41,514 nt of DNA from Gammaproteobacteria bacterium (GTDB lineage: Bacteria > Pseudomonadota > Gammaproteobacteria > UBA9339), in assembly GCA_023135155.1 (NCBI GenBank), contig JAGLTR010000015.1, positions 1 through 41,514 of the forward strand, written 5' to 3'. How positions within the stretch are numbered: the first letter of the stretch is position 1; every line of letters begins with the position of its first letter. Below are positions 2,242 through 35,489 of this stretch, piece after piece. The notes beneath the pieces are model-generated. The model had not been told where the DNA came from. It searched no databases and saw only the letters and a program-made list of their open reading frames with translations. Made by a program: the position numbers and the translations under genes.

Positions 2242-3917
2242 TGCGTAAGAAACAGCAACAATTATTTTCCGGTAGATTCTATTTTCTAATTTTCCTTTTG
2301 TGTCTAATATTCGTTGGCCTTATTTTTAGAATGCTTGATTTGAATGTTTTTAAACATACGTTCTTGCAGCGGCAGAGTAACAGTCGTGCAATACGTGTTA
2401 TAAGTATTCCCGCGCACCGAGGCATGATTATAGATCGGAATAATGAACCATTGGCTATTAGTACGCCTGTTGATTCGGTTTGGGTTAATCCACAGATTAC
2501 TCATGTTACGCCAGAGCAGCTGACTAAATTAGGACATATTTTGCATATTCCATATAGTGTTTTGAGTCGTAAAGTTGATAAGCATAATGGACGTTGGTTT
2601 GTTTATTTACGACGTAGAATAGATCCTGCTGTTGCTAACAAAGTGCGTGCCTTAAAAGTGTCGGGGATATTCTTTCAGCGTGAATATCGTCGGTTCTATC
2701 CAGAGGCTGAAGTTGATGCGCATGTTTTAGGTTTCACAAATATTGATGATGTTGGCCAGGAAGGTTTGGAATTAGCCTATAATTCTTGGTTAAAAGGTGT
2801 TCCAGGAAAAAAGAAAGTGTTAAAGGATAGAATGGGTCATGTGATTGCTGATTTCGGCGATATAAAAAAACCACAACCTGGACATAATTTGCAAGTAAGT
2901 ATTGATGATCGCATTCAGTATTTAGCTTACCGTGAATTAAAAAGAATTTTTGAAAAATATCATGCTGAATCAGGATCTATTGTAGTTTTAGATGTTAAAA
3001 CAGGTGAAATATTAGCGATGGTAAATCAGCCATCATTTAATCCCAATAATCGACCTGCTGATACTGATGGTCGCTATCGAAATCGTGCGGTTACTGATGT
3101 TTTTGAGCCTGGCTCAACGATGAAAGCATTTAGTATTGCTAGTGCTTTGGAGAGCGGCAAATATACGCCTCTTACAAAGGTTGATACTAATCCTGGTTGG
3201 ATGGTTGTTGATGGTAATACTATTAATGATGAGCATATTAACCATGGTGTACTAACAGTTACTGGAGTGTTGCAAAAATCTAGTAATATCGGTGTGGCGA
3301 AAATGACGCTATCTTTGCCGGCTGAGCATTTATGGTTGGTTTTACATAAAATGGGTTTTGGTGAGATTACAGGTGGTGGTTTTCCTGGTGAAGTTCCAGG
3401 AATATTAGTGAACCATCGTGTTTGGCGCCCGTTTGTTTTGGCAACGTTAGCATTTGGTTATGGTCTCTCTGTTACGCCGTTGCAGTTGGCTGGTGCATAT
3501 GCTGTTATTGCTAATAACGGTATTAAAATGCCGCTAAGTTTTCTTAAAGTAGTACAAAATAATCTACCGCAAGGTGAGCGTGTAATGAAAGTACGGGTTG
3601 CGCGTCAGATGGCGGTTATGTTGGAGTCTGTGGTTGCAAATGGTGGTACCGGAACGCGTGCGCAGGTACCTGGATATCGAGTTGCAGGTAAGACCGGAAC
3701 AGCATATATTGCTGGAAAACATGGTTATAATAAAAAGAATCATATTGCATCATTTGTGGGTATGGCCCCGGTGAGCAATCCAAGATTGGTTGTTGCTGTT
3801 ATTGTGCGTAATCCGCATGGCCAACATTTTGGTGGCTTAGTGGCAGCTCCGGCATTTGCCCATGTTATGGGAGGAGCGTTACGTCTTATGGGTGTGGCGC
3901 CGGATAATTTATCTTAA
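2241..3917 (+). CDS. ftsI: FtsI (PBP3), septal peptidoglycan transpeptidase
   Basis: This is the class B penicillin-binding protein that cross-links septal murein with FtsW. After a single membrane anchor (about residues 12-32) come the pedestal domain and the transpeptidase domain. Active-site motifs are present: S292-T-M-K295 with the nucleophile Ser, S347-S-N349, and K484-T-G486. The 558-residue length is normal for the family. The GTG start at 2241 shares its G with the ftsL TAG stop, so translation is coupled. Confidence 0.96.
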   Translation: MRKKQQQLFSGRFYFLIFLLCLIFVGLIFRMLDLNVFKHTFLQRQSNSRAIRVISIPAHRGMIIDRNNEPLAISTPVDSVWVNPQITHVTPEQLTKLGHILHIPYSVLSRKVDKHNGRWFVYLRRRIDPAVANKVRALKVSGIFFQREYRRFYPEAEVDAHVLGFTNIDDVGQEGLELAYNSWLKGVPGKKKVLKDRMGHVIADFGDIKKPQPGHNLQVSIDDRIQYLAYRELKRIFEKYHAESGSIVVLDVKTGEILAMVNQPSFNPNNRPADTDGRYRNRAVTDVFEPGSTMKAFSIASALESGKYTPLTKVDTNPGWMVVDGNTINDEHINHGVLTVTGVLQKSSNIGVAKMTLSLPAEHLWLVLHKMGFGEITGGGFPGEVPGILVNHRVWRPFVLATLAFGYGLSVTPLQLAGAYAVIANNGIKMPLSFLKVVQNNLPQGERVMKVRVARQMAVMLESVVANGGTGTRAQVPGYRVAGKTGTAYIAGKHGYNKKNHIASFVGMAPVSNPRLVVAVIVRNPHGQHFGGLVAAPAFAHVMGGALRLMGVAPDNLS

Positions 3918-3935
3918 ATGTAAGTAGTACTTATT

Positions 3936-5420
3936 ATGTTGTTAAGTGCGTTATTAAAAGATTTTGTTACGGTAAATTCTACGCAAGATTGCGAAGTCTC
4001 AGGGTTGTGCTCTGATAGTCGTAAAATAAAGTCGGGTGATCTGTTTTTTGCTTATCCAGGCACACAGATTGATGGACGTAATTTTATTGATGTAGCTGTG
4101 GCAGGTGGTGCCAGCGCAGTTTTATGCGAAGCTGAGAATGAAGGTGATTTCTTAGATTGTGATGCCCCAATATTTTTTGTTAATGACTTGCAATACCATG
4201 TGGGTTTTATTGCGGCAAAATTCTACGATTTTCCAGCGCAAAAAATGCGTATGATTGGTATTACCGGAACAAACGGTAAAACATCATGTAGTCATTATTT
4301 GGCGCAAGCTTTAGATCAATTGAATATTCCATGCGGTATTGTTGGTACTTTAGGGGTTGGGTTCTCTGGTGATTTACAGCCGGGCATACATACAACACCT
4401 GATCCGATTTCGTTGCAAAAACATTTGTTTGAACTGCAGCAGCAGGGAGCAAAAGCTATTGCGATGGAGGTTTCCTCGCATGGTTTAGATCAGAATCGCA
4501 TTGATAGTATTCAATTTGACATAGCAGTATTTACTAATTTATCGCGTGATCATTTGGATTATCATCACACCATGGAAAGCTATGGCGCTGCAAAAAAGAA
4601 ACTATTTTTATCCTCTAATTTGCAGCAAGCTGTTATTAACGCGGATGATGATTTTGGTGTTGAATTAATTAATGCATTTAAAGATAAGTTGTCGGTTGTT
4701 GGGTTTAGTATGCAGGATGCGGAGATGGATATTCCGATAGTGCGCGCAACTGACGTTAAAATTAGCGATAGTGGTTATCATGTTGGAATAGTATCGCCAT
4801 GGGGTGATGGTATCTTAAATACTAATCTTTTGGGTCGTTTTAACGTTAGTAATTTATTGGCAGTGCTATCTGTTTTGGGAGTTATGGAGATGCCATTAGC
4901 TGATGCCTTAACCGCATTGGCAAAAATTGTTCCTGTTTCTGGTCGTATGCAGACTTTTGGCGGTGGTAAGAAACAACCGTTAGTGGTTGTAGATTATGCG
5001 CACACTCCAGATGCATTAATGCAGGCGCTAACTGTTTTACGTGAGCATTGTCATGGACACTTATGGTGCGTATTTGGTTGTGGTGGTGATAGAGATAGAG
5101 GCAAGCGACCATTAATGGGTGAGCTTGCTGAAAGGTTAAGTGATCAAATTATTATTACTGATGATAACCCTCGCACAGAAGACTCACTGGTAATTATCGA
5201 TGAGATCAAGCAGGGCTTGGTTTGCCCGTGGGCTGCAGAGATTGAGTCAGATCGTGCTACTGCGATTGCGCATGCTATTGACTGTGCAAATGCTGGCGAT
5301 ATTATATTGATCGCAGGCAAGGGGCATGAAGATTACCAGATAATTGGTGATGAGCGAACGCCGTTTAGTGATGTTGTTGAGGTGCAAAAAAACTTAGGAA
5401 TAAAAAATGCAGTTAAGTGA
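3936..5420 (+). CDS. murE: MurE, UDP-MurNAc-tripeptide ligase (meso-DAP type)
   Basis: This Mur ligase adds the third residue to UDP-MurNAc-L-Ala-D-Glu using ATP. The nucleotide loop G111-TNGKT116 and the Mur ligase motif EVSSHGLDQ are present. The motif D410-N-P-R413 is the established signature for meso-diaminopimelate selection, as opposed to lysine, which fits a Gram-negative cell wall. Length is 494 residues, normal for the family. No strong Shine-Dalgarno precedes the ATG. The 3' end overlaps murF by 14 bp, so the two are probably translationally coupled. Confidence 0.96.
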   Translation: MLLSALLKDFVTVNSTQDCEVSGLCSDSRKIKSGDLFFAYPGTQIDGRNFIDVAVAGGASAVLCEAENEGDFLDCDAPIFFVNDLQYHVGFIAAKFYDFPAQKMRMIGITGTNGKTSCSHYLAQALDQLNIPCGIVGTLGVGFSGDLQPGIHTTPDPISLQKHLFELQQQGAKAIAMEVSSHGLDQNRIDSIQFDIAVFTNLSRDHLDYHHTMESYGAAKKKLFLSSNLQQAVINADDDFGVELINAFKDKLSVVGFSMQDAEMDIPIVRATDVKISDSGYHVGIVSPWGDGILNTNLLGRFNVSNLLAVLSVLGVMEMPLADALTALAKIVPVSGRMQTFGGGKKQPLVVVDYAHTPDALMQALTVLREHCHGHLWCVFGCGGDRDRGKRPLMGELAERLSDQIIITDDNPRTEDSLVIIDEIKQGLVCPWAAEIESDRATAIAHAIDCANAGDIILIAGKGHEDYQIIGDERTPFSDVVEVQKNLGIKNAVK

Positions 5421-6702
5421 TTTAGATGTATTCCAGACTTATAGTATTGATACTCGTTCTTTACAGCGTGGTGATGTTTTTATTGCACTTCATGGTCCTA
5501 ATTTTGATGGTCATGATTATCTCGCAATGGCAGCTGAAAAGGGGGCAAGTGCTGCAATTGTTGAGCGTGAAGTTACAACGACATTACCGTTAATTATTGT
5601 TGACGATAGTTTTGCGACATTTTGTGATTTAGCGAAAGAACGTCGTCAAGCACTTAGTATTCCGATAAGTGCAATCACTGGTAGTTGTGGAAAAACTACA
5701 ACAAAAACCATGTTGGCAAATATTTTAAATGGTGTGGGTGAGACGTTAGCTACTGAAAAGAATTTCAATAATAATATTGGTGTGCCACTGACTTTATTAA
5801 AAATAATGCCTGAGCATAAATTCACAGTCATTGAAATTGGTGCCAATATGAAGCATGAGATTGCTTTTGCTGCTGAGATTGCTTCGCCTGATATTGCAAT
5901 TATTACGAATGCTGCCCCAGTGCATTTGGAAGGTTTTGGCAATCTAGATAGTGTGGCGCGGATTAAAGGCGATATCTTGACGAATTTACAACCTGATGGA
6001 CGGGGTATTTTAAATGCTGATGATCAATATTATGCTTATTGGCAAGAACGTCTGAATGGACGTGAATTTATTAGCTTTGGCTTGCATAATAAAGCTGATG
6101 TAATGGCGAAAGATATTGCTATTGATGCTGATGATGCAAGTCAATTTTCTCTAGTTACTCCGCAAGATTCTGTCGATGTGCATTTGAGATTATTAGGCGA
6201 GCATAATATCTATAATGCTTTGGCTGCTGCAGCTGCAGCTTTAGCGATTGGGGTGCCATTACAGCTTATTAAAATCGGTTTAGAAAATGTAACGGCGGTC
6301 CCTAATAGAATGATAAAAAAAGTTGGGAAAAATGGCGTAATTATTATTGATGATAGCTATAATGCCAATCCTCGTTCGATGCAGGCTGCCATGCGTATTT
6401 TGGCTTTGAGCAGTGGTAAGAAGGTGATGGTTGTTGGTGATATGGGTGAGCTCGGTGCTGATGCTCGTGATTTTCATCGTCAGCTAGGCGAAGAGGCGCG
6501 TGCGATAGGGGTTGATTATTTGTTTGCTGTGGGTGATTTAACCCGCCTGACTGTTGAGGCATTTGGAAACAATGCCGAGTTTTTTAGCGAACGTGAAGAG
6601 TTAATTGCAGTTTTAAATAAAATGGCACAACAGGGAGTCACTGTTTTGGTGAAAGGCTCAAAGGTAAATCGCCTTTGGGAAATTGTTGCAAGTTTGCTTT
6701 AA
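5407..6702 (+). CDS. murF: MurF, UDP-MurNAc-tripeptide:D-Ala-D-Ala ligase
   Basis: MurF completes the cytoplasmic pentapeptide by adding D-Ala-D-Ala. The N-terminal domain carries SIDTRSLQRGDVFIALHG, the family's substrate-binding region, followed by the ATP loop G92-SCGKT97. EKNFNNNIGVPLTLL and IIDDSYNANPRSM are typical MurF blocks. At 431 residues it is slightly short compared with E. coli MurF (452), with a compact C-terminal domain. The start lies inside the last 14 bp of murE. mraY follows after 16 bp with AGGAAG as ribosome binding site. Confidence 0.95.
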   Translation: MQLSDLDVFQTYSIDTRSLQRGDVFIALHGPNFDGHDYLAMAAEKGASAAIVEREVTTTLPLIIVDDSFATFCDLAKERRQALSIPISAITGSCGKTTTKTMLANILNGVGETLATEKNFNNNIGVPLTLLKIMPEHKFTVIEIGANMKHEIAFAAEIASPDIAIITNAAPVHLEGFGNLDSVARIKGDILTNLQPDGRGILNADDQYYAYWQERLNGREFISFGLHNKADVMAKDIAIDADDASQFSLVTPQDSVDVHLRLLGEHNIYNALAAAAAALAIGVPLQLIKIGLENVTAVPNRMIKKVGKNGVIIIDDSYNANPRSMQAAMRILALSSGKKVMVVGDMGELGADARDFHRQLGEEARAIGVDYLFAVGDLTRLTVEAFGNNAEFFSEREELIAVLNKMAQQGVTVLVKGSKVNRLWEIVASLL

Positions 6703-21855: not shown

Positions 21856-24800
21856 ATGGGTAGAGGTAATAAGACATCAGGATATAAACGACGAAGTAGT
21901 CGGTACGATAGGCGATTGTTTCCGCGCGCGCTACAGCCTCATGAGTCGTCGAGTGCAAGAAATAAAAGAGGAAATGGTCAAAGTTCTCAAAAAAGAGAGT
22001 TAACGGGAGGAGAGCGTGTATTTTTAGCCGTTATTGCTGTTTCGCAGTTGTTTGCGGGCCTGAAATTTTTAAGTTGTAGTGTTGTTGGTGCAGCCGCTAT
22101 GCCTACAAAGTCTAGTAGGCCAAGGCCTCCAACTTCTTCGGTCAATGTAGTTGTTTCTTGGGGATTACGTGCGTCTAATAGCACTTGTTCTGCACAGCCA
22201 AATCCTGCATCGAGTGATAGTGCAGAAAAGCTTGGTTTAGTAAGTGCCGAACAACCTGTCACTATATTTCACGAGCCTGTCGTTTTAAAAGCACGAAGTA
22301 TCCGCAATCGTGATCGTATATTGCAGGATTGGCCAGCTTGGAGTCATAAGTTTTTAAAACTATTTAAGGATGGTGACGATGTTGATGTTAGTTTATTAAG
22401 CCAGTATTTGCTTGAGTTTATTAAGAAATATCCTGATTGGGGTAATATCCCTTTTATTAAAGATAAAATATATTTATATGAGAAGATAGTAGCTATTTAC
22501 TATGGTTCTAGCGAGGATTTGCTAGATGTTGCGCGTAGTTCTTTGATCGAAGCCAAAAAGCTAGCCACGAAACTTAATGAAGATGATTCAGTAAAAATCT
22601 GGTGTGATCATAATTTGCCAGAATTTGAGGCCACAATTGCTGTAAGGGTTTATAATCTGGCAATACAGGCAATACCGAATAAATGCAACGGCAATTTAAC
22701 TTGTCAGCGAGAAATGGCTATAGAAGAAATATACAAGCTGGAGCCGTATTTTCCGGTTTTAGCAAACAATGAAAGCACTCGAAACAAGCCTTTTGAATTA
22801 TATTTATTGAGATATAACTTGAATGTTGGTTTCAGAAGATATGAGCAGGCAATAACAGATCTTGAGGAAGCGGTAAAGTTAGCGATGAGGAATGATAAAG
22901 CCGAGCGTGTATCGCGGATAGAAGAGATAATTGACCAAATTTATGAAGATATGAGTTTTTTGGACTATGCAGACAATAAGGTCAGAATAGGTGGGATTGT
23001 CAGGCTGATTAAGCAGGAATCATTAACTGTCGTTTCAGGGGCGCAAAGTGAAGAGTTCGTTAGTAATATATTAGAGAATTGGCAGGTTTGGAGCGATAAA
23101 ATTTTGCGTCTACTAGTAGACGGTGAAGATGTTAATGTTGTTTTATTAAGGAAATATATGCTCCAGTTTGAGGGAGAATATCCTGACTGGGAAGAGCATT
23201 CTTTTATTAGGAATAAAATATATGTATATCGAGGAATGATATATGTTAGTTACTATTTGGATAAAAGCTCGATCGATATGGCGCGCAGTCATCTAATAGA
23301 CATCAAAGGTGTCGTCGCAAGATTTGATGAAAATGATCCGGTAAAAATATGGTTTGATAATAATATACCAGTGTTAGAGGCTACAATTGCTATGCGTGTA
23401 TATGATCAGGCTTTGGATGCTATTCCATACGAATGCAGTGATAATGACAATTGTCGAGACAGGAAGTGGTTGGATGAGCTCAATAAGTTGATACCATACT
23501 ATTCATTATTATATGACCAGAAAAAAGATCTGAAGACGTTTCCTGAGTTGCTTCTTTTGATGAGTGAGGTGAAATTTAGATTAAATAAGGATGACGAGGC
23601 AATTGCAGATCTTGAAGAGGCGGCAAAATTGTTGATGCTAAATGACCAAGCCAAATGTATATCGTGCATAGAAGAAACGTTAAGACACTATGGTATAGAT
23701 ACGTATAATAGAGTAGGCGAGAATATTAGAGCCAGAATTGATAGGATTGTTGAATTGATTGGGCCGAAACCATTTGCTGTGCAAGTGCAAGAGAAACTTT
23801 TATATCATTGGCCTCGTTTATTAGCACTAGTTGCTGTAATTCTTACTTTTTTTGGTGCTACGTGGGTTATTTCCAGAAAAATGAAAGTTGCTCGAGCGAT
23901 TAGACGCAAGCTTGCATTAGATTCGCAACTCGATCGCGTAGCTAGGTTGACTGATTTAAATAATATTACAGAGGATTTTGTCGGTTTAAATTGGGAGTGG
24001 GTAGAGGATAGTTGTTATAGTTTGAAGTTAGAATACAAAAATACTATGTACGCTAGACGGGGATCTTTTGCTGGAGAAATATGTCTTGACGGTTCAATAA
24101 TTGATTTTGGCATTAGAGCGTTATTTAAGCAGTTATTTGGTGAGTCCAATATAATGGTAACCAACGATTGTTTGATCGTTACGCTGGATGATGAAAAATG
24201 CCACATAAAACCACCACAGCATAAAATTTCGCAAATAAAACAAGAATTGGTAGAGTGCTCTTGCGAATATAAATTACATTTATTTGAGCAAAAGATCGCA
24301 GAGAAACTAGACGAATGCCAACAATTAAAGGACGATATTAATGAGGTCTTGGAGTCGTTAAATCTTGAGCGGGTTAGTGCGATTTGCGATGTTCGGTGCA
24401 AAGCCAAAAGTAGGATTGAAAAATTGTATCATCGCGATTATTGGGAATTGATTGTATTTTGCGACGATTTTGTAAGTAGACAAGTCGAGATGGAGTCAAC
24501 AACTGAAAATGGTCGCGCTATAGTTGATTCATTGGAGAAAATATGTGCGGAACTACAACAACTGTCGCAAGAGAATGAGCAGAAACTTAATCAATACGCC
24601 AATGATATAGGGTTACTACGGATTGGTTGTCGCACTATCATAGAAGAATGCAAAAAGTATGGTCAAGCAATTAGTGATGGTTTGATTGTATTAGAGAAAC
24701 GACATGCAAATGCTTTGAAGTTGCTTGATGGAGATTGTTCTGCGTTGGAAGTTGTGGGAAAAAAATCAACGCCAAGTTTTTTTGATAGCGGTGCTAGTAG

Positions 24801-25866
24801 TAGTGAGGGTAGCGGCGATGAGTGCAATATTGAGAAAGAACCATCTGGTCCTACATTAAATGCGATGAGTGTGGGAGCCACGCCTGAAAAGCAAGAAGAA
24901 GCGGTTATTGTCGTCAATAAAGGTAGGTCTCCTAGACGCGAGATCACTATTACAGCTGAGCATTTATCAGAACCAATAACGAATATTGCAGCCATTATAG
25001 AAATTATCTCAGTCTATCGATCTAGCAATGATGTAAGTCAAAAACGACAACTGCATTATGTGTTTCAATTGTATTGTTTAAGATTATTTGAACGACTAAA
25101 ATCTTTATGTTATGGCGATCAACGCGCTTATGAGAGCGTTGCTAATATTCGCAATTATTTTATGCATTGGCAATTTAATAGCGACGATCTTGAGTTAACA
25201 GTTGTAGATAATTTAATGTCGCTTGAACAATTGGACCTACTGTTGCAACAGATTAAGCAGAATTTGCAAGATAGTGAAGCAAGAGATGAGTTGCGCGCTT
25301 TCTTGCGCGACAATCTTTTGCAGGCGGCAGAGGATTTGGCTCAGGAAGGGAAAAGTTACTATGCGGTCGGTGAATATGCCGAAATAATTAGAGAAGCATT
25401 GTGTGCTTTGCAGAGTTTAAATATATCGGTTGAGCGGGGGTTAGAACAATTACCAGGTCTGTATGCTGCTGTAATGGTATTGGCGTTAATCGGCGAGAGT
25501 TTACAGAAATTATACGAGATTTTTTTCTATGCTACTACTACGGATATAGATAAAACTAATGCAAATGCGTTGCTGGTTGATTTGTATGCAGTAGATGGTA
25601 GTAAGTCGTTTTGGAGATTTTGTTGCAGAACCAAGGGAGCATTGGGGCACAATAAATATTTGCAATTAGATTTAAAACAACTTCGGCAATATGCTAACTT
25701 TGAAGAAAATCAAAGTATGTGGAGTCAGGCTGGCGAATGTTTGAAAAACGCGATTGACTTGACGGCTTCATTCAGTGGTATGAGTGTTGAAAAGGTGGGT
25801 GATGATGGTAGGTTGGATTATGATTCGGAGACTGAGACTTCCAGTCCCATATTGGGAGGACGCTGA
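21856..25866 (+). CDS. Large bitopic membrane protein with duplicated periplasmic unit and HEPN-like motif
   Basis: I do not recognise this 1336-residue protein as a named family. Visible layout: a basic N-terminal tail (1-54), a membrane helix (about 55-80), a short low-complexity stretch, then two tandem copies of a ~250-residue helical unit (about 155-394 and 405-645). A second membrane helix follows (about 656-674) with RKMKVARAIRRK behind it, so the repeats should be periplasmic and the rest cytosolic. Next come a mixed region (about 700-795), a coiled coil (about 796-960), a Ser/Glu-rich linker and a helical C-terminal part. That part contains R1099-N-Y-F-M-H1104, which fits the R-N-x3-H motif of HEPN RNases. 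A second HEPN-like stretch (IGES at 1212, R1258-x6-H1265) is weaker. The segments DEAIADLEEAAKLL and YEQAITDLEEAVKLA resemble TPR helices. It is monocistronic between secA and rseP, with its own promoter and terminator. A HEPN or signalling function is inference. Confidence 0.75.
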   Translation: MGRGNKTSGYKRRSSRYDRRLFPRALQPHESSSARNKRGNGQSSQKRELTGGERVFLAVIAVSQLFAGLKFLSCSVVGAAAMPTKSSRPRPPTSSVNVVVSWGLRASNSTCSAQPNPASSDSAEKLGLVSAEQPVTIFHEPVVLKARSIRNRDRILQDWPAWSHKFLKLFKDGDDVDVSLLSQYLLEFIKKYPDWGNIPFIKDKIYLYEKIVAIYYGSSEDLLDVARSSLIEAKKLATKLNEDDSVKIWCDHNLPEFEATIAVRVYNLAIQAIPNKCNGNLTCQREMAIEEIYKLEPYFPVLANNESTRNKPFELYLLRYNLNVGFRRYEQAITDLEEAVKLAMRNDKAERVSRIEEIIDQIYEDMSFLDYADNKVRIGGIVRLIKQESLTVVSGAQSEEFVSNILENWQVWSDKILRLLVDGEDVNVVLLRKYMLQFEGEYPDWEEHSFIRNKIYVYRGMIYVSYYLDKSSIDMARSHLIDIKGVVARFDENDPVKIWFDNNIPVLEATIAMRVYDQALDAIPYECSDNDNCRDRKWLDELNKLIPYYSLLYDQKKDLKTFPELLLLMSEVKFRLNKDDEAIADLEEAAKLLMLNDQAKCISCIEETLRHYGIDTYNRVGENIRARIDRIVELIGPKPFAVQVQEKLLYHWPRLLALVAVILTFFGATWVISRKMKVARAIRRKLALDSQLDRVARLTDLNNITEDFVGLNWEWVEDSCYSLKLEYKNTMYARRGSFAGEICLDGSIIDFGIRALFKQLFGESNIMVTNDCLIVTLDDEKCHIKPPQHKISQIKQELVECSCEYKLHLFEQKIAEKLDECQQLKDDINEVLESLNLERVSAICDVRCKAKSRIEKLYHRDYWELIVFCDDFVSRQVEMESTTENGRAIVDSLEKICAELQQLSQENEQKLNQYANDIGLLRIGCRTIIEECKKYGQAISDGLIVLEKRHANALKLLDGDCSALEVVGKKSTPSFFDSGASSSEGSGDECNIEKEPSGPTLNAMSVGATPEKQEEAVIVVNKGRSPRREITITAEHLSEPITNIAAIIEIISVYRSSNDVSQKRQLHYVFQLYCLRLFERLKSLCYGDQRAYESVANIRNYFMHWQFNSDDLELTVVDNLMSLEQLDLLLQQIKQNLQDSEARDELRAFLRDNLLQAAEDLAQEGKSYYAVGEYAEIIREALCALQSLNISVERGLEQLPGLYAAVMVLALIGESLQKLYEIFFYATTTDIDKTNANALLVDLYAVDGSKSFWRFCCRTKGALGHNKYLQLDLKQLRQYANFEENQSMWSQAGECLKNAIDLTASFSGMSVEKVGDDGRLDYDSETETSSPILGGR

Positions 25867-25871
25867 TAATT

Positions 25872-25896
25872 AAAAAGGGGCATGAAGCCCCTTTTT
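25872..25896. terminator. Bidirectional rho-independent terminator
   Basis: AAAAAGGGGC (25872-25881) and GCCCCTTTTT (25887-25896) are perfect complements around ATGAA. The symmetric A and T runs let it end both the 1336-aa gene and the convergent DUF4389 gene. Confidence 0.9.
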
Positions 25897-25914
25897 AATA
25901 AGTAATGATTTTTA

Positions 25915-26220
25915 CTATTTTTCTATTTTCTTATGTTTTTCTTTTGTCGTAGGCCAAGCTTCAAACGGGAATGGTTTTTGCTCGCTTACGTAAGTTAAAT
26001 ATTCCATGATTTGATAGATATATTTACTTAAGGATTCAGAGAATGGTAAAAGAGTTTTTGCGGGTTTGCCAACGAGCATTGTATAAATAAACTGAAATGC
26101 GGCGATAACCCAAATTAGAATTCTGGTGAGAAATGTTACCAGTACGAAAAAGATCATAAAGATAAGACGGATCCATTTTTCTTTAACTGATAGCTTCTCC
26201 TTTAGAGTTGGTTCTGTCAT
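25915..26220 (-). CDS. DUF4389 family membrane protein
   Basis: The 101-residue protein matches the DUF4389 pattern as I know it: two adjacent hydrophobic stretches (LIFMIFFVLVTFLTRILIWVIAAFQFIYTMLVG) followed by LLPFSESLSKYIYQIMEYLTYVSEQKPFPF. The function of the family is unknown. An upstream in-frame ATG at 26235 exists, but its codons contain AAAGGAG. This is a good Shine-Dalgarno for the ATG at 26220, so the shorter start is preferred. It converges on the 1336-aa gene with a shared terminator and diverges from rseP. Confidence 0.85.
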   Translation of the reverse strand: MTEPTLKEKLSVKEKWIRLIFMIFFVLVTFLTRILIWVIAAFQFIYTMLVGKPAKTLLPFSESLSKYIYQIMEYLTYVSEQKPFPFEAWPTTKEKHKKIEK

Positions 26221-26270
26221 GATAGCTCCTTTCATCGTTAAAAACGTAAATATTCTAACACAACTATATT

Positions 26271-28162: not shown

Positions 28163-28579
28163 ATGGATTTTGTAGTTAAAATAAGAAGGTCCTTATTATT
28201 TGCGTTTTTTTTAGGTATTGTGCACTTGTGTGCGATTACGGCGGTAATATTGTTGTCGGTTCCAGTCTACATAAAGTTACTATGTATGATTTTGTTGTTT
28301 ATCAGCTTTCTTTATTATTTTAATAAATATGTAATTCTAAATAGTGCGAGGACTATTGTTAAAATAGAGCATATTGGTGAGAGTTGGAGTTTGGTAAACA
28401 GTGAAGGTAATATTATGTCCGCTGAATTGGTGGCCACATATATTTCTCGTAGGTTAATTGTCTTGCGATTTAAAGTGTCAGGAAGACTTTTTAAAATATC
28501 AGTGCCAATATTCATTGATGCTGTAACCGCAGAGAGTTGGCGGCAATTGCGACAGCGCTTGTTAACTAAAAAGGTTTAG
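28163..28579 (+). CDS. YgfX/CptA-like (DUF1434) inner membrane protein
   Basis: The 138-residue protein has two close hydrophobic helices (about residues 10-32 and 35-54), then a soluble beta-rich tail. The tail includes GESWSLVNSEGNIMSAEL, RRLIVLRFKVSG and SVPIFIDAVTAESWRQLRQRLL. This layout, and the ending in which Asp is followed by an amphipathic R-x-L-R helix, resembles YgfX/CptA, an inner-membrane protein reported to affect FtsZ and MreB in E. coli. The resemblance is moderate, and the usual partner SdhE is not adjacent. It lies 5 bp after the FKBP gene and 2 bp before acyP, so all are probably co-transcribed. Confidence 0.55.
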   Translation: MDFVVKIRRSLLFAFFLGIVHLCAITAVILLSVPVYIKLLCMILLFISFLYYFNKYVILNSARTIVKIEHIGESWSLVNSEGNIMSAELVATYISRRLIVLRFKVSGRLFKISVPIFIDAVTAESWRQLRQRLLTKKV

Positions 28580-33376: not shown

Positions 33377-34351
33377 TTAAAGAGCTATTTCGGCTAATGC
33401 ATCTAAGGCTGATTTTAAGCCGCCATGCACAGCGTCAACATCTTCTTGTTTCCATTCGCTTGGATCTTCACGTAAGAAGGTGGTTAGATCGTCGCGGTTA
33501 TCAAACTTCGCTAATGGTAGATGGAATGTCTTGTCATATGCCTCTACAACAACTGTGTTTGGCTTGTCTGATTTCTCGATCAGGTAGTTGATATCGTCGG
33601 TACCATAGTCGTTAATCATAACTACATGCGGTACACCATGATGCAGGATAGATCCTTGTTCATCAGGTTTAGCACGTTCTTCGTTCTTACGACGTGAATC
33701 TTCAGGTGTTACCCATATGTAGAGTACAACCGCGCGGTTAAGTAGTTCCTCTGAAAGATGTGCAAAAGAGTATTGATAGCCGAAACCTTCAGGTAGAGGA
33801 AGAGATGAACCTTGTGGTCCACCACGAGCGAACTCAATAACAATAGTTTTATTTTCTAAAGATTCATGTGAAAGTTTACGTTTTACTTCAACAAAGTCCT
33901 GGCACTCTGCACGCAATTTGTCAGCAATAACTGTAAGCATCTCTGGATCTACAGTTGCTATACGGTTGGGAAGCCCAACTTTTTTTGCAGCAGCTTCTAT
34001 TCTGTCAAATACATATGTGGAAGCATCTGTTGGATTAATTTCTGTTTTGTTGATGACATCATCAAAATCCTCATTAACTAATTCAATCAGTGTTCCCCAT
34101 TCGCGTGGATCAACAAATGGTTCATCAGTGGTTTTGAAAAACATAGTTGGTTTGCCAAGTGCATCTAGCTCTTCGTCAAATCGACGCATTAAATGCACAT
34201 ATGGATAATCATCTAATTGAATAGTGTTGCCCATATGAAAATCTTTAGCGCGTTTTTCTTTCGAGCCATGCTCTAGGTAAGTACGCACTTCTGATTTTCC
34301 AGAAGCTGGTAGGGCAGTTAATAAAATTACGTCAAATACTTTAGCGCTCAT
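33377..34351 (-). CDS. P-loop kinase-like protein of unknown function
   Basis: The 324-residue protein begins with a hydrophobic strand and a Walker A-like loop, A13-LPASGKS20, as in small-molecule kinases; the first Gly is replaced by Ala. Other noteworthy segments are NTIQLDDYPYVHLMRRFDEEL, IVIEFARGGPQGSSLP with a possible Walker B strand, and RRKNEERAKPDEQGSILHHG, which could be a lid. I do not recognise the family and infer only nucleotide-dependent phosphotransfer or hydrolysis. AAGGGGA precedes the ATG. It lies 10 bp after the membrane protein gene at 34362-35489, so the two form an operon. Confidence 0.75.
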   Translation of the reverse strand: MSAKVFDVILLTALPASGKSEVRTYLEHGSKEKRAKDFHMGNTIQLDDYPYVHLMRRFDEELDALGKPTMFFKTTDEPFVDPREWGTLIELVNEDFDDVINKTEINPTDASTYVFDRIEAAAKKVGLPNRIATVDPEMLTVIADKLRAECQDFVEVKRKLSHESLENKTIVIEFARGGPQGSSLPLPEGFGYQYSFAHLSEELLNRAVVLYIWVTPEDSRRKNEERAKPDEQGSILHHGVPHVVMINDYGTDDINYLIEKSDKPNTVVVEAYDKTFHLPLAKFDNRDDLTTFLREDPSEWKQEDVDAVHGGLKSALDALAEIAL

Positions 34352-34361
34352 CGGTTTCCCC

Positions 34362-35489
34362 TTATGCTTTTTGTGTTAATTTATCGGAATCGTCTTCAAT
34401 TTCGTGGGCTGCGAGAAGTTCGCGAGCACGTCTTTTCTCGGCTACAGTCATAAAGCCAATAGCAACGATAATGAAGAAAAGTGATAGCCAGTCCTGTAAT
34501 TCTGGGAATTTTCCAGCAAGGAACATCCAAGAAATTATAGTTGCCGCGGTTCCTGCAAGTAGCGAAGTTAAGCGGTTTACTAGTCCTGCGAAAGTTGCGG
34601 TTCGGCCTTTAAACATGAAGATAAAGACGGAGAAGAACGAAACCAAACCAAATGCGGTACCAGCTAATATTGCCCAGCCACCAGAAGGGATGCTAAAGGT
34701 AACAGCTGAACGATAATGCTCTAATAGCGCAATACCACCACCCCAATTAATTGGCCAATAAAATAGTGCAAATGCAGCAATTAAAATAAATGTAGTTGCT
34801 GATATTTGTTCGATAGCAAAATATCCGCGGTTGTCACCTTTAATACCTTTGGGTCGTGTGTTTTTAAAGTAGTTCATGATGTATATACGTAGAGCATAGG
34901 CGGCTATGTAGCTGCATAAAATCGACATGGCAGCAGGGTGAGTGAAGAAATCAAAGTCACCTGATTGTTGCGTAAATACACTCCAGAACAATTTTACACT
35001 GATAGCTAATAAGGCAAAGAATACACCGTAGTTTTCTTCCTTATAGACCTTTTTATGTAAAATGCCTTGGCGAATTTGAATGCTATCTACGATACGACTT
35101 ATAACAATTACACTGCCACGCATAATTACCATTGCGACCATTACTGATACGCCTTTAATTGAATACATTAAAGTTGTGAAAGTAATAATAATCGCGGTAC
35201 AAAAACCCGATGGGATAATGTAGAAAAATTCGCCTGGAACAGTGAATGGTCCAATTTTTTTCGGTAGAGCGGTTTTAAATTTATACCACTTCCTGATGAT
35301 AACAACAGCTAATGCGACACTGACGCCACCGATAGTGCTATAAACTAAATATTCGATCGGCACCATCATTGGGCCGCCAGGATAGCTTTGGAAATATTTT
35401 ACTGTTACACCAGTGATTACATAAAAGAAGAAATAGGCAAAGCAGAGTTGGATTAAGCGACCCGTACTGCCTTCAGAAGTTTTCCACAT
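34362..35489 (-). CDS. Ten-helix membrane protein, transporter-like
   Basis: The 375-residue product has about ten hydrophobic helices in two groups of five, the pattern of drug/metabolite (EamA-type) transporters. Hydrophobic segments are near residues 12-30, 42-65, 88-108, 112-133, 153-172, 188-206, 230-250, 268-292, 305-328 and 335-352. The C-terminal tail is charged and cytosolic. I see no motif that fixes a substrate, and family membership is tentative. It is the first gene of a two-gene operon with the P-loop protein. A promoter and a TGGAG ribosome binding site precede it. Confidence 0.75.
   Translation of the reverse strand: MWKTSEGSTGRLIQLCFAYFFFYVITGVTVKYFQSYPGGPMMVPIEYLVYSTIGGVSVALAVVIIRKWYKFKTALPKKIGPFTVPGEFFYIIPSGFCTAIIITFTTLMYSIKGVSVMVAMVIMRGSVIVISRIVDSIQIRQGILHKKVYKEENYGVFFALLAISVKLFWSVFTQQSGDFDFFTHPAAMSILCSYIAAYALRIYIMNYFKNTRPKGIKGDNRGYFAIEQISATTFILIAAFALFYWPINWGGGIALLEHYRSAVTFSIPSGGWAILAGTAFGLVSFFSVFIFMFKGRTATFAGLVNRLTSLLAGTAATIISWMFLAGKFPELQDWLSLFFIIVAIGFMTVAEKRRARELLAAHEIEDDSDKLTQKA

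Follow-up and report, generated by a model that had tools for sequence, protein, structure and literature searches.

A gammaproteobacterial orphan gene beside secA encodes a predicted two-sided inner-membrane protein with a duplicated periplasmic domain and a candidate HEPN-like bundle

In eukaryotes, Ire1 joins a non-cytosolic sensor through a membrane helix to a cytosolic output. For bacteria, HEPN proteins that are bound to the membrane and might sense external signals were put forward in 2013 (PMC3710099, section 15); membrane-associated examples from that paper are DUF4145 with WP-TM, Abi2/SWT1 with TM and HEPN-2TM-Zn-ribbon. We analysed a window of 41,514 nucleotides from the draft genome of a gammaproteobacterium (1.68 Mb, 72% complete), in which an orphan gene encodes a protein that shares with those examples a predicted place in the inner membrane, a helical domain bearing R-N-x3-H on the predicted cytosolic side, and the idea of a surface signal leading to an RNA output. 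It departs from them in having no sequence match, a large duplicated periplasmic domain and a possible second, degenerate bundle. With HepT/DUF86 (PF01934) toxins it shares an RNxxxH motif predicted to end helix 3, a helix after it and a profile score that is weak, albeit the best in the protein; unlike them, it has no MntA-like partner next door and no curated match, and is fused to a membrane sensor-like half. No MNT nucleotidyltransferase antitoxin of the type VII HepT/MntA kind is adjacent, the neighbours being secA, a DUF4389 gene and then rseP. The likeness to Ire1, a KEN RNase, is one of layout only (PMC3710099): the orphan is bacterial, has no kinase domain and no KEN match, and its periplasmic part is unrelated. 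Periplasmic TPR-repeat inner-membrane proteins also carry TPR-like helical repeats outside the membrane, whereas the orphan has units of ~245 residues with C-x5-C, sub-threshold TPR scores and a long cytosolic half.

The 1336-residue open reading frame named in the first-pass annotation is borne out by its ATG start, by a positive codon score confined to its own frame and by a GC3 of 0.33, the level of its neighbours; its codon adaptation is below that of housekeeping genes. The gene is real and native-like in codon use. No clear Shine-Dalgarno sequence is visible before it. secA lies upstream across a gap of 84 bases, and downstream a DUF4389 protein gene (25915-26235, - strand) is convergent with the orphan and has the intrinsic terminator in common with it; beyond lie rseP, an FKBP-type isomerase gene and lepA. 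The same annotation had given the gene its own promoter and terminator. The terminator stands as a strong hairpin; a promoter scan found no promoter in the 84-base gap, and promoter-like sites over the region were at chance level (15 seen against 15.2 expected), so that an own promoter is unsupported and co-transcription with secA is as likely. The features of the locus are as follows.

21856-25866, + strand: orphan membrane protein gene, ATG start, 1336 codons (open reading frame and codon score)
22015-22080, + strand: hydrophobic segment 1, residues 54-75, putative signal anchor (Kyte-Doolittle 1.93, basic N-flank)
22294-23025, + strand: periplasmic repeat unit 1, residues 147-390, with C277/C283 (aligned to unit 2; weak TPR-type match)
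23053-23781, + strand: periplasmic repeat unit 2, residues 400-642, with C527/C533 and a TPR-like stretch at 564-592 (aligned to unit 1; weak TPR-type match)
23812-23874, + strand: predicted transmembrane helix 2, residues 653-673 (Kyte-Doolittle 2.33, basic C-flank)
23926-24225, + strand: small predicted cytosolic region, residues 691-790, without family match
24226-24735, + strand: residues 791-960, predicted cytosolic and probably helical (weak, sub-threshold matches of SNARE/Sec10-like type)
24736-24945, + strand: low-complexity Ser/Gly-rich linker, residues 961-1030 (sequence)
24946-25293, + strand: four-helix bundle, HEPN-like candidate, residues 1031-1146 (AF2 single-sequence model, profile scores)
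25150-25167, + strand: R1099-N-Y-F-M-H1104, Rx4H-type motif at the modelled end of helix 3 (AF2 model, motif scan)
25282-25755, + strand: second helical region, residues 1143-1300, possible degenerate DUF86-like HEPN (full-length, very weak profile alignment)
25633-25650, + strand: K1260-G-A-L-G-H1265, placed by profile alignment at or beside RNxLxH
25869-25899, + strand: intrinsic terminator GGGGC-ATGAA-GCCCC with A/T runs on both sides (-19 kcal/mol, z -5.3)

Hydropathy peaks at residues ~54-75 and 653-673 agree with the two membrane helices first proposed. K/R outnumber D/E by 14 to 4 before segment 1 (residues 1-53) and by 9 to 5 after segment 2 (residues 674-710); the basic outer flanks of both segments would place the middle in the periplasm and both ends in the cytosol. 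Read from hydropathy and flanking charge only, residues ~76-652 (~575) are probably periplasmic and residues 674-1336 (~660) cytosolic, with both termini cytosolic, and the overall architecture of the first-pass annotation, with its ~575 periplasmic residues, holds. Segment 1 might be cleaved as a signal at GAAA-M (78-82); cleaved or uncleaved, the sidedness of the remaining parts is unchanged.

The periplasmic repeats also claimed there turn out to be one long tandem duplication. Units 1 and 2 align without gaps over 231 residues at 41% identity (E 4e-57), and each keeps a C-x5-C pair (C277/C283 and C527/C533), consistent with an oxidising compartment and probably forming one disulfide per unit. 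TPR-type matches at residues 328-342 and 564-592 are both sub-threshold, and no TPR reached its curated cut-off (TPR_8, 16.5 against 25.7 bits; TPR_2, 15.4 against 27 bits). On the cytosolic side, the long coiled coil proposed at first is weakly supported: residues 791-960 have a helical look and SNARE/Sec10-like matches below cut-off, but a rough heptad analysis detected no strong coiled coil in them. One candidate relative of this stretch (E 0.09) was rejected as an SMC-like coiled coil.

The proposed HEPN-type motif, R1099-N-Y-F-M-H1104, is present and is the sole R[NDH]x3H of the protein. Shuffling the whole protein produces an RNx3H by chance 5% of the time, and shuffling residues 1031-1290 does so 1.4% of the time. 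Single-sequence AlphaFold prediction of residues 1031-1146 gave a four-helix bundle (pLDDT 77.9, pTM 0.65) with helices at 1034-1056, 1060-1084, 1089-1103 and 1123-1145, in which R1099 and H1104 stand at the helix-3 end, the place of Rx4-6H in HEPN enzymes. A four-helix up-down bundle with the motif ending helix 3 is a mark of HEPN domains in section 7 of PMC3710099, and the modelled helix order agrees with it; the polar residue expected after the arginine is supplied by the asparagine. Because the model was built from sequence alone, it is independent of the initial guess, although it has no alignment depth, was assessed by helix order only, and has domain borders chosen around the motif. On these terms the motif's position along the chain came out as the first-pass annotation had asked of a structural model. 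An AF2 model of the 285-residue C-terminal region was unreliable (pLDDT 41). Helix 2 of this bundle contains no Ex3[KR], an acidic motif present in many, not all, HEPN families; E1079-R-L-K offers Ex2K only.

The profile and structure searches suggested as further checks went the other way. No HEPN family matched the whole protein or its pieces in Pfam, NCBIfam, PADLOC or PHROGs, no curated family of these four libraries was reached at its cut-off anywhere in the protein, and no solved structure matched by sequence. Foldseek with the bundle model, run without a known-HEPN positive control, listed no HEPN in its 50 best PDB rows; the lowest E there was 0.56, and the matches were vinculin heads, sensor domains and other generic bundles. 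It found nothing among viral models. A DUF3781 match straddles both bundles, with E 5e-4 for the full-length sequence and 9e-5 for a fragment of it, in both cases below cut-off. A PADLOC PDC-M64B candidate (E 0.037) was discarded: searching 398 genomes yielded a single weak match, interrupted by stop codons, and no alignable family. With hhalign against seven HepT-type proteins from relatives, RNYFMH was placed on the motif at a probability of 1.3%, less than the protein's own periplasmic repeats scored as decoys. The HEPN-like region as first described is supported in part: the motif's place in the modelled bundle agrees with it, whereas curated profiles, Foldseek and hhalign do not support it, and a missing profile match is one of the outcomes that the first-pass annotation had named as refuting.

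Comparisons with DUF86/HepT profiles gave marginal scores. Pairwise alignment to two HepT proteins landed on residues 1088-1142 (P 0.03-0.05 within the C-terminal region), and windows at residues 1021-1210 were the highest-scoring of the protein against DUF86/HepT profiles. The figures from these profiles are exploratory, because four were tried. The first, a 12-member DUF86 profile, gave 7.0 and 5.5 bits. A 15-member DUF86 profile (14 fetched sequences plus one from locus L029) gave 10.6 bits for residues 1031-1146 and 6.6 bits for 1143-1300; C-terminal windows took the top eight places of 451 from the orphan protein and 26 other neighbouring genes, with 1021-1210 best and 1161-1290 next, and none of the 500 shuffles made of each piece scored as high as the original. 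With a mixed profile the two regions came to 9.2 and 0.2 bits. The 29-member profile, the most trusted of the four, gives the weakest support for HEPN: 5.7 and 3.1 bits for the first and second region, equalled or bettered by 16 and 12 of 1000 shuffles and by 12 and 26 of 811 decoy windows, 3 HepT being within each of the latter counts.

A very weak profile alignment spans the whole second region, setting IGES (1212-1215) on the DUF86 IGEA position and the CRTKGALGH stretch on or beside RNxLxH; hhalign left this motif unaligned. The region also carries E1214-x3-K1218, of the Ex3[KR] type. It had first been described as a weaker second stretch marked by IGES and R1258-x6-H1265. Both are present, and R1258-x6-H1265 was rejected as a second HEPN site and carries no weight, because Rx4-6H is expected about 3 times per whole protein by chance. 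The better fit is K1260-G-A-L-G-H1265, which as a site would be degenerate, in keeping with a possible degenerate DUF86-like HEPN in this region.

No homologue of the orphan was found elsewhere in its own genome; in 55 relatives, 10 of the same family among them; in the 11 genomes of the order, by repeat profile or C-terminal region; in 369 genomes of the class, by the whole protein; in 398 genomes of the phylum, by the repeat profile only; in two GTDB contig scans; in viral contigs; or in phages and plasmids by tblastn. The collection scans used short exact peptide patterns, which distant relatives may escape. Two apparent relatives of the C-terminal region, with E 0.013 and 0.03, were put down to chance: one falls within a UvrD-type helicase, and one lies opposite a relaxase-like gene. 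A confident reading of the gene after secA was possible in five family relatives (L017, L019, L020, L021 and L023), and in each it is unrelated to the orphan. Across L017 and L019-L023 the post-secA genes differ by genus (an MFS-type transporter, membrane proteins, a glycosyltransferase-like gene and others), which makes the slot after secA a turnover point because its gene differs between genera of the family. L021 also contains a large ORF (3135-6233, + strand; 1033 aa) with a low-complexity start. Same-family relatives encode several HEPN proteins of the HepT/NTase-substrate-binding type (L029-L035), several beside a nucleotidyltransferase gene; the search used there gave no such protein in the incomplete genome from which the window comes. 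As kin of the orphan these proteins were rejected as unrelated, being mostly ordinary HepT/MntA-type pairs.

The reading we prefer, at about even confidence, is of a two-sided inner-membrane protein with a duplicated periplasmic domain, most likely a lineage-restricted trans-envelope sensor or scaffold; the broad description is the best supported, and a sensing role is suggested by layout only. The signal anchor and second helix would hold ~575 residues in the periplasm, where the two helical, TPR-like units of ~245 residues most likely bind a peptide, a protein or a wall or envelope component. In the cytosolic part, a small domain is followed by a helical stretch, then by a flexible linker and finally by two helical bundles at the C-terminal end. 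Binding outside would most likely alter the oligomeric state of these bundles, which would serve as an output or docking platform. A narrower version of this explanation, not its opposite, makes the protein an envelope-sensing RNase: the repeats detect a signal, the tail dimerises and a composite HEPN site, of R1099/H1104 plus a degenerate second HEPN at 1143-1300, cleaves RNA. Its appeal lies in a motif found where expected in an independently modelled four-helix bundle, in the HEPN-like polar N after R, and in residues 1021-1210 and 1161-1290 taking the top two places of the 451 windows with the 15-member profile, unmatched by any of 500 shuffles each. We nevertheless consider it improbable, since HEPN is absent from the curated library matches and the 50 best Foldseek rows, the 29-member profile drops to scores that shuffles and decoys reach, hhalign does not rise above decoys and helix 2 of the first bundle has no Ex3[KR]. 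A true HEPN-type fold for residues 1031-1146 is plausible, though less likely than not, and an active RNase in the predicted tail is unlikely. Less likely again would be a bacterial Ire1-like protein in the full sense, with a duplicated periplasmic sensor coupled across the membrane to two HEPN domains in tandem, a canonical and a degenerate one, that together make up one composite RNase site.

The bundles might instead be ordinary helical dimerisation or docking domains of a generic trans-envelope scaffold, with R-N-x3-H a coincidence. This is a serious contender that falls a little short of an even chance: RNx3H arises in one in twenty shuffles and the Foldseek matches are generic bundles, yet the motif ends helix 3 of the model and the profile scores peak there. 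A different account, which we find unlikely, sees a rapidly evolving protein, particular to the host or habitat of a bacterium with a reduced genome, that might for instance serve in envelope attachment or interaction and use its cytosolic part as a mere anchor. The absence of the orphan from all 10 same-family genomes searched, the unrelated genes in the post-secA slot of the five readable relatives and the 1.68 Mb genome, from an incomplete assembly, favour it; ~660 cytosolic residues are, however, a lot for an anchor. Because membrane-bound HEPN sensing has already been proposed (PMC3710099), even a strong RNase reading would be a variation on a known idea. Were the tail an RNase, this one bacterial protein would link the state of the envelope to RNA decay, a route open to testing and of the kind predicted in 2013 (PMC3710099). 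Were it not, the protein would still be large, two-sided in the membrane and lacking recognised relatives, from an order represented here by 11 genomes.

Elsewhere in the window, a gene between the FKBP-type gene and lepA (28163-28579, + strand; 138 aa) matches Cpta_toxin (PF07254, E 1.8e-9) and probably encodes a YgfX-type membrane protein. Further along, a multi-pass membrane protein that looks DMT-transporter-like by eye (34362-35489, - strand) adjoins a P-loop-like protein (33377-34351, - strand), each without a Pfam match.
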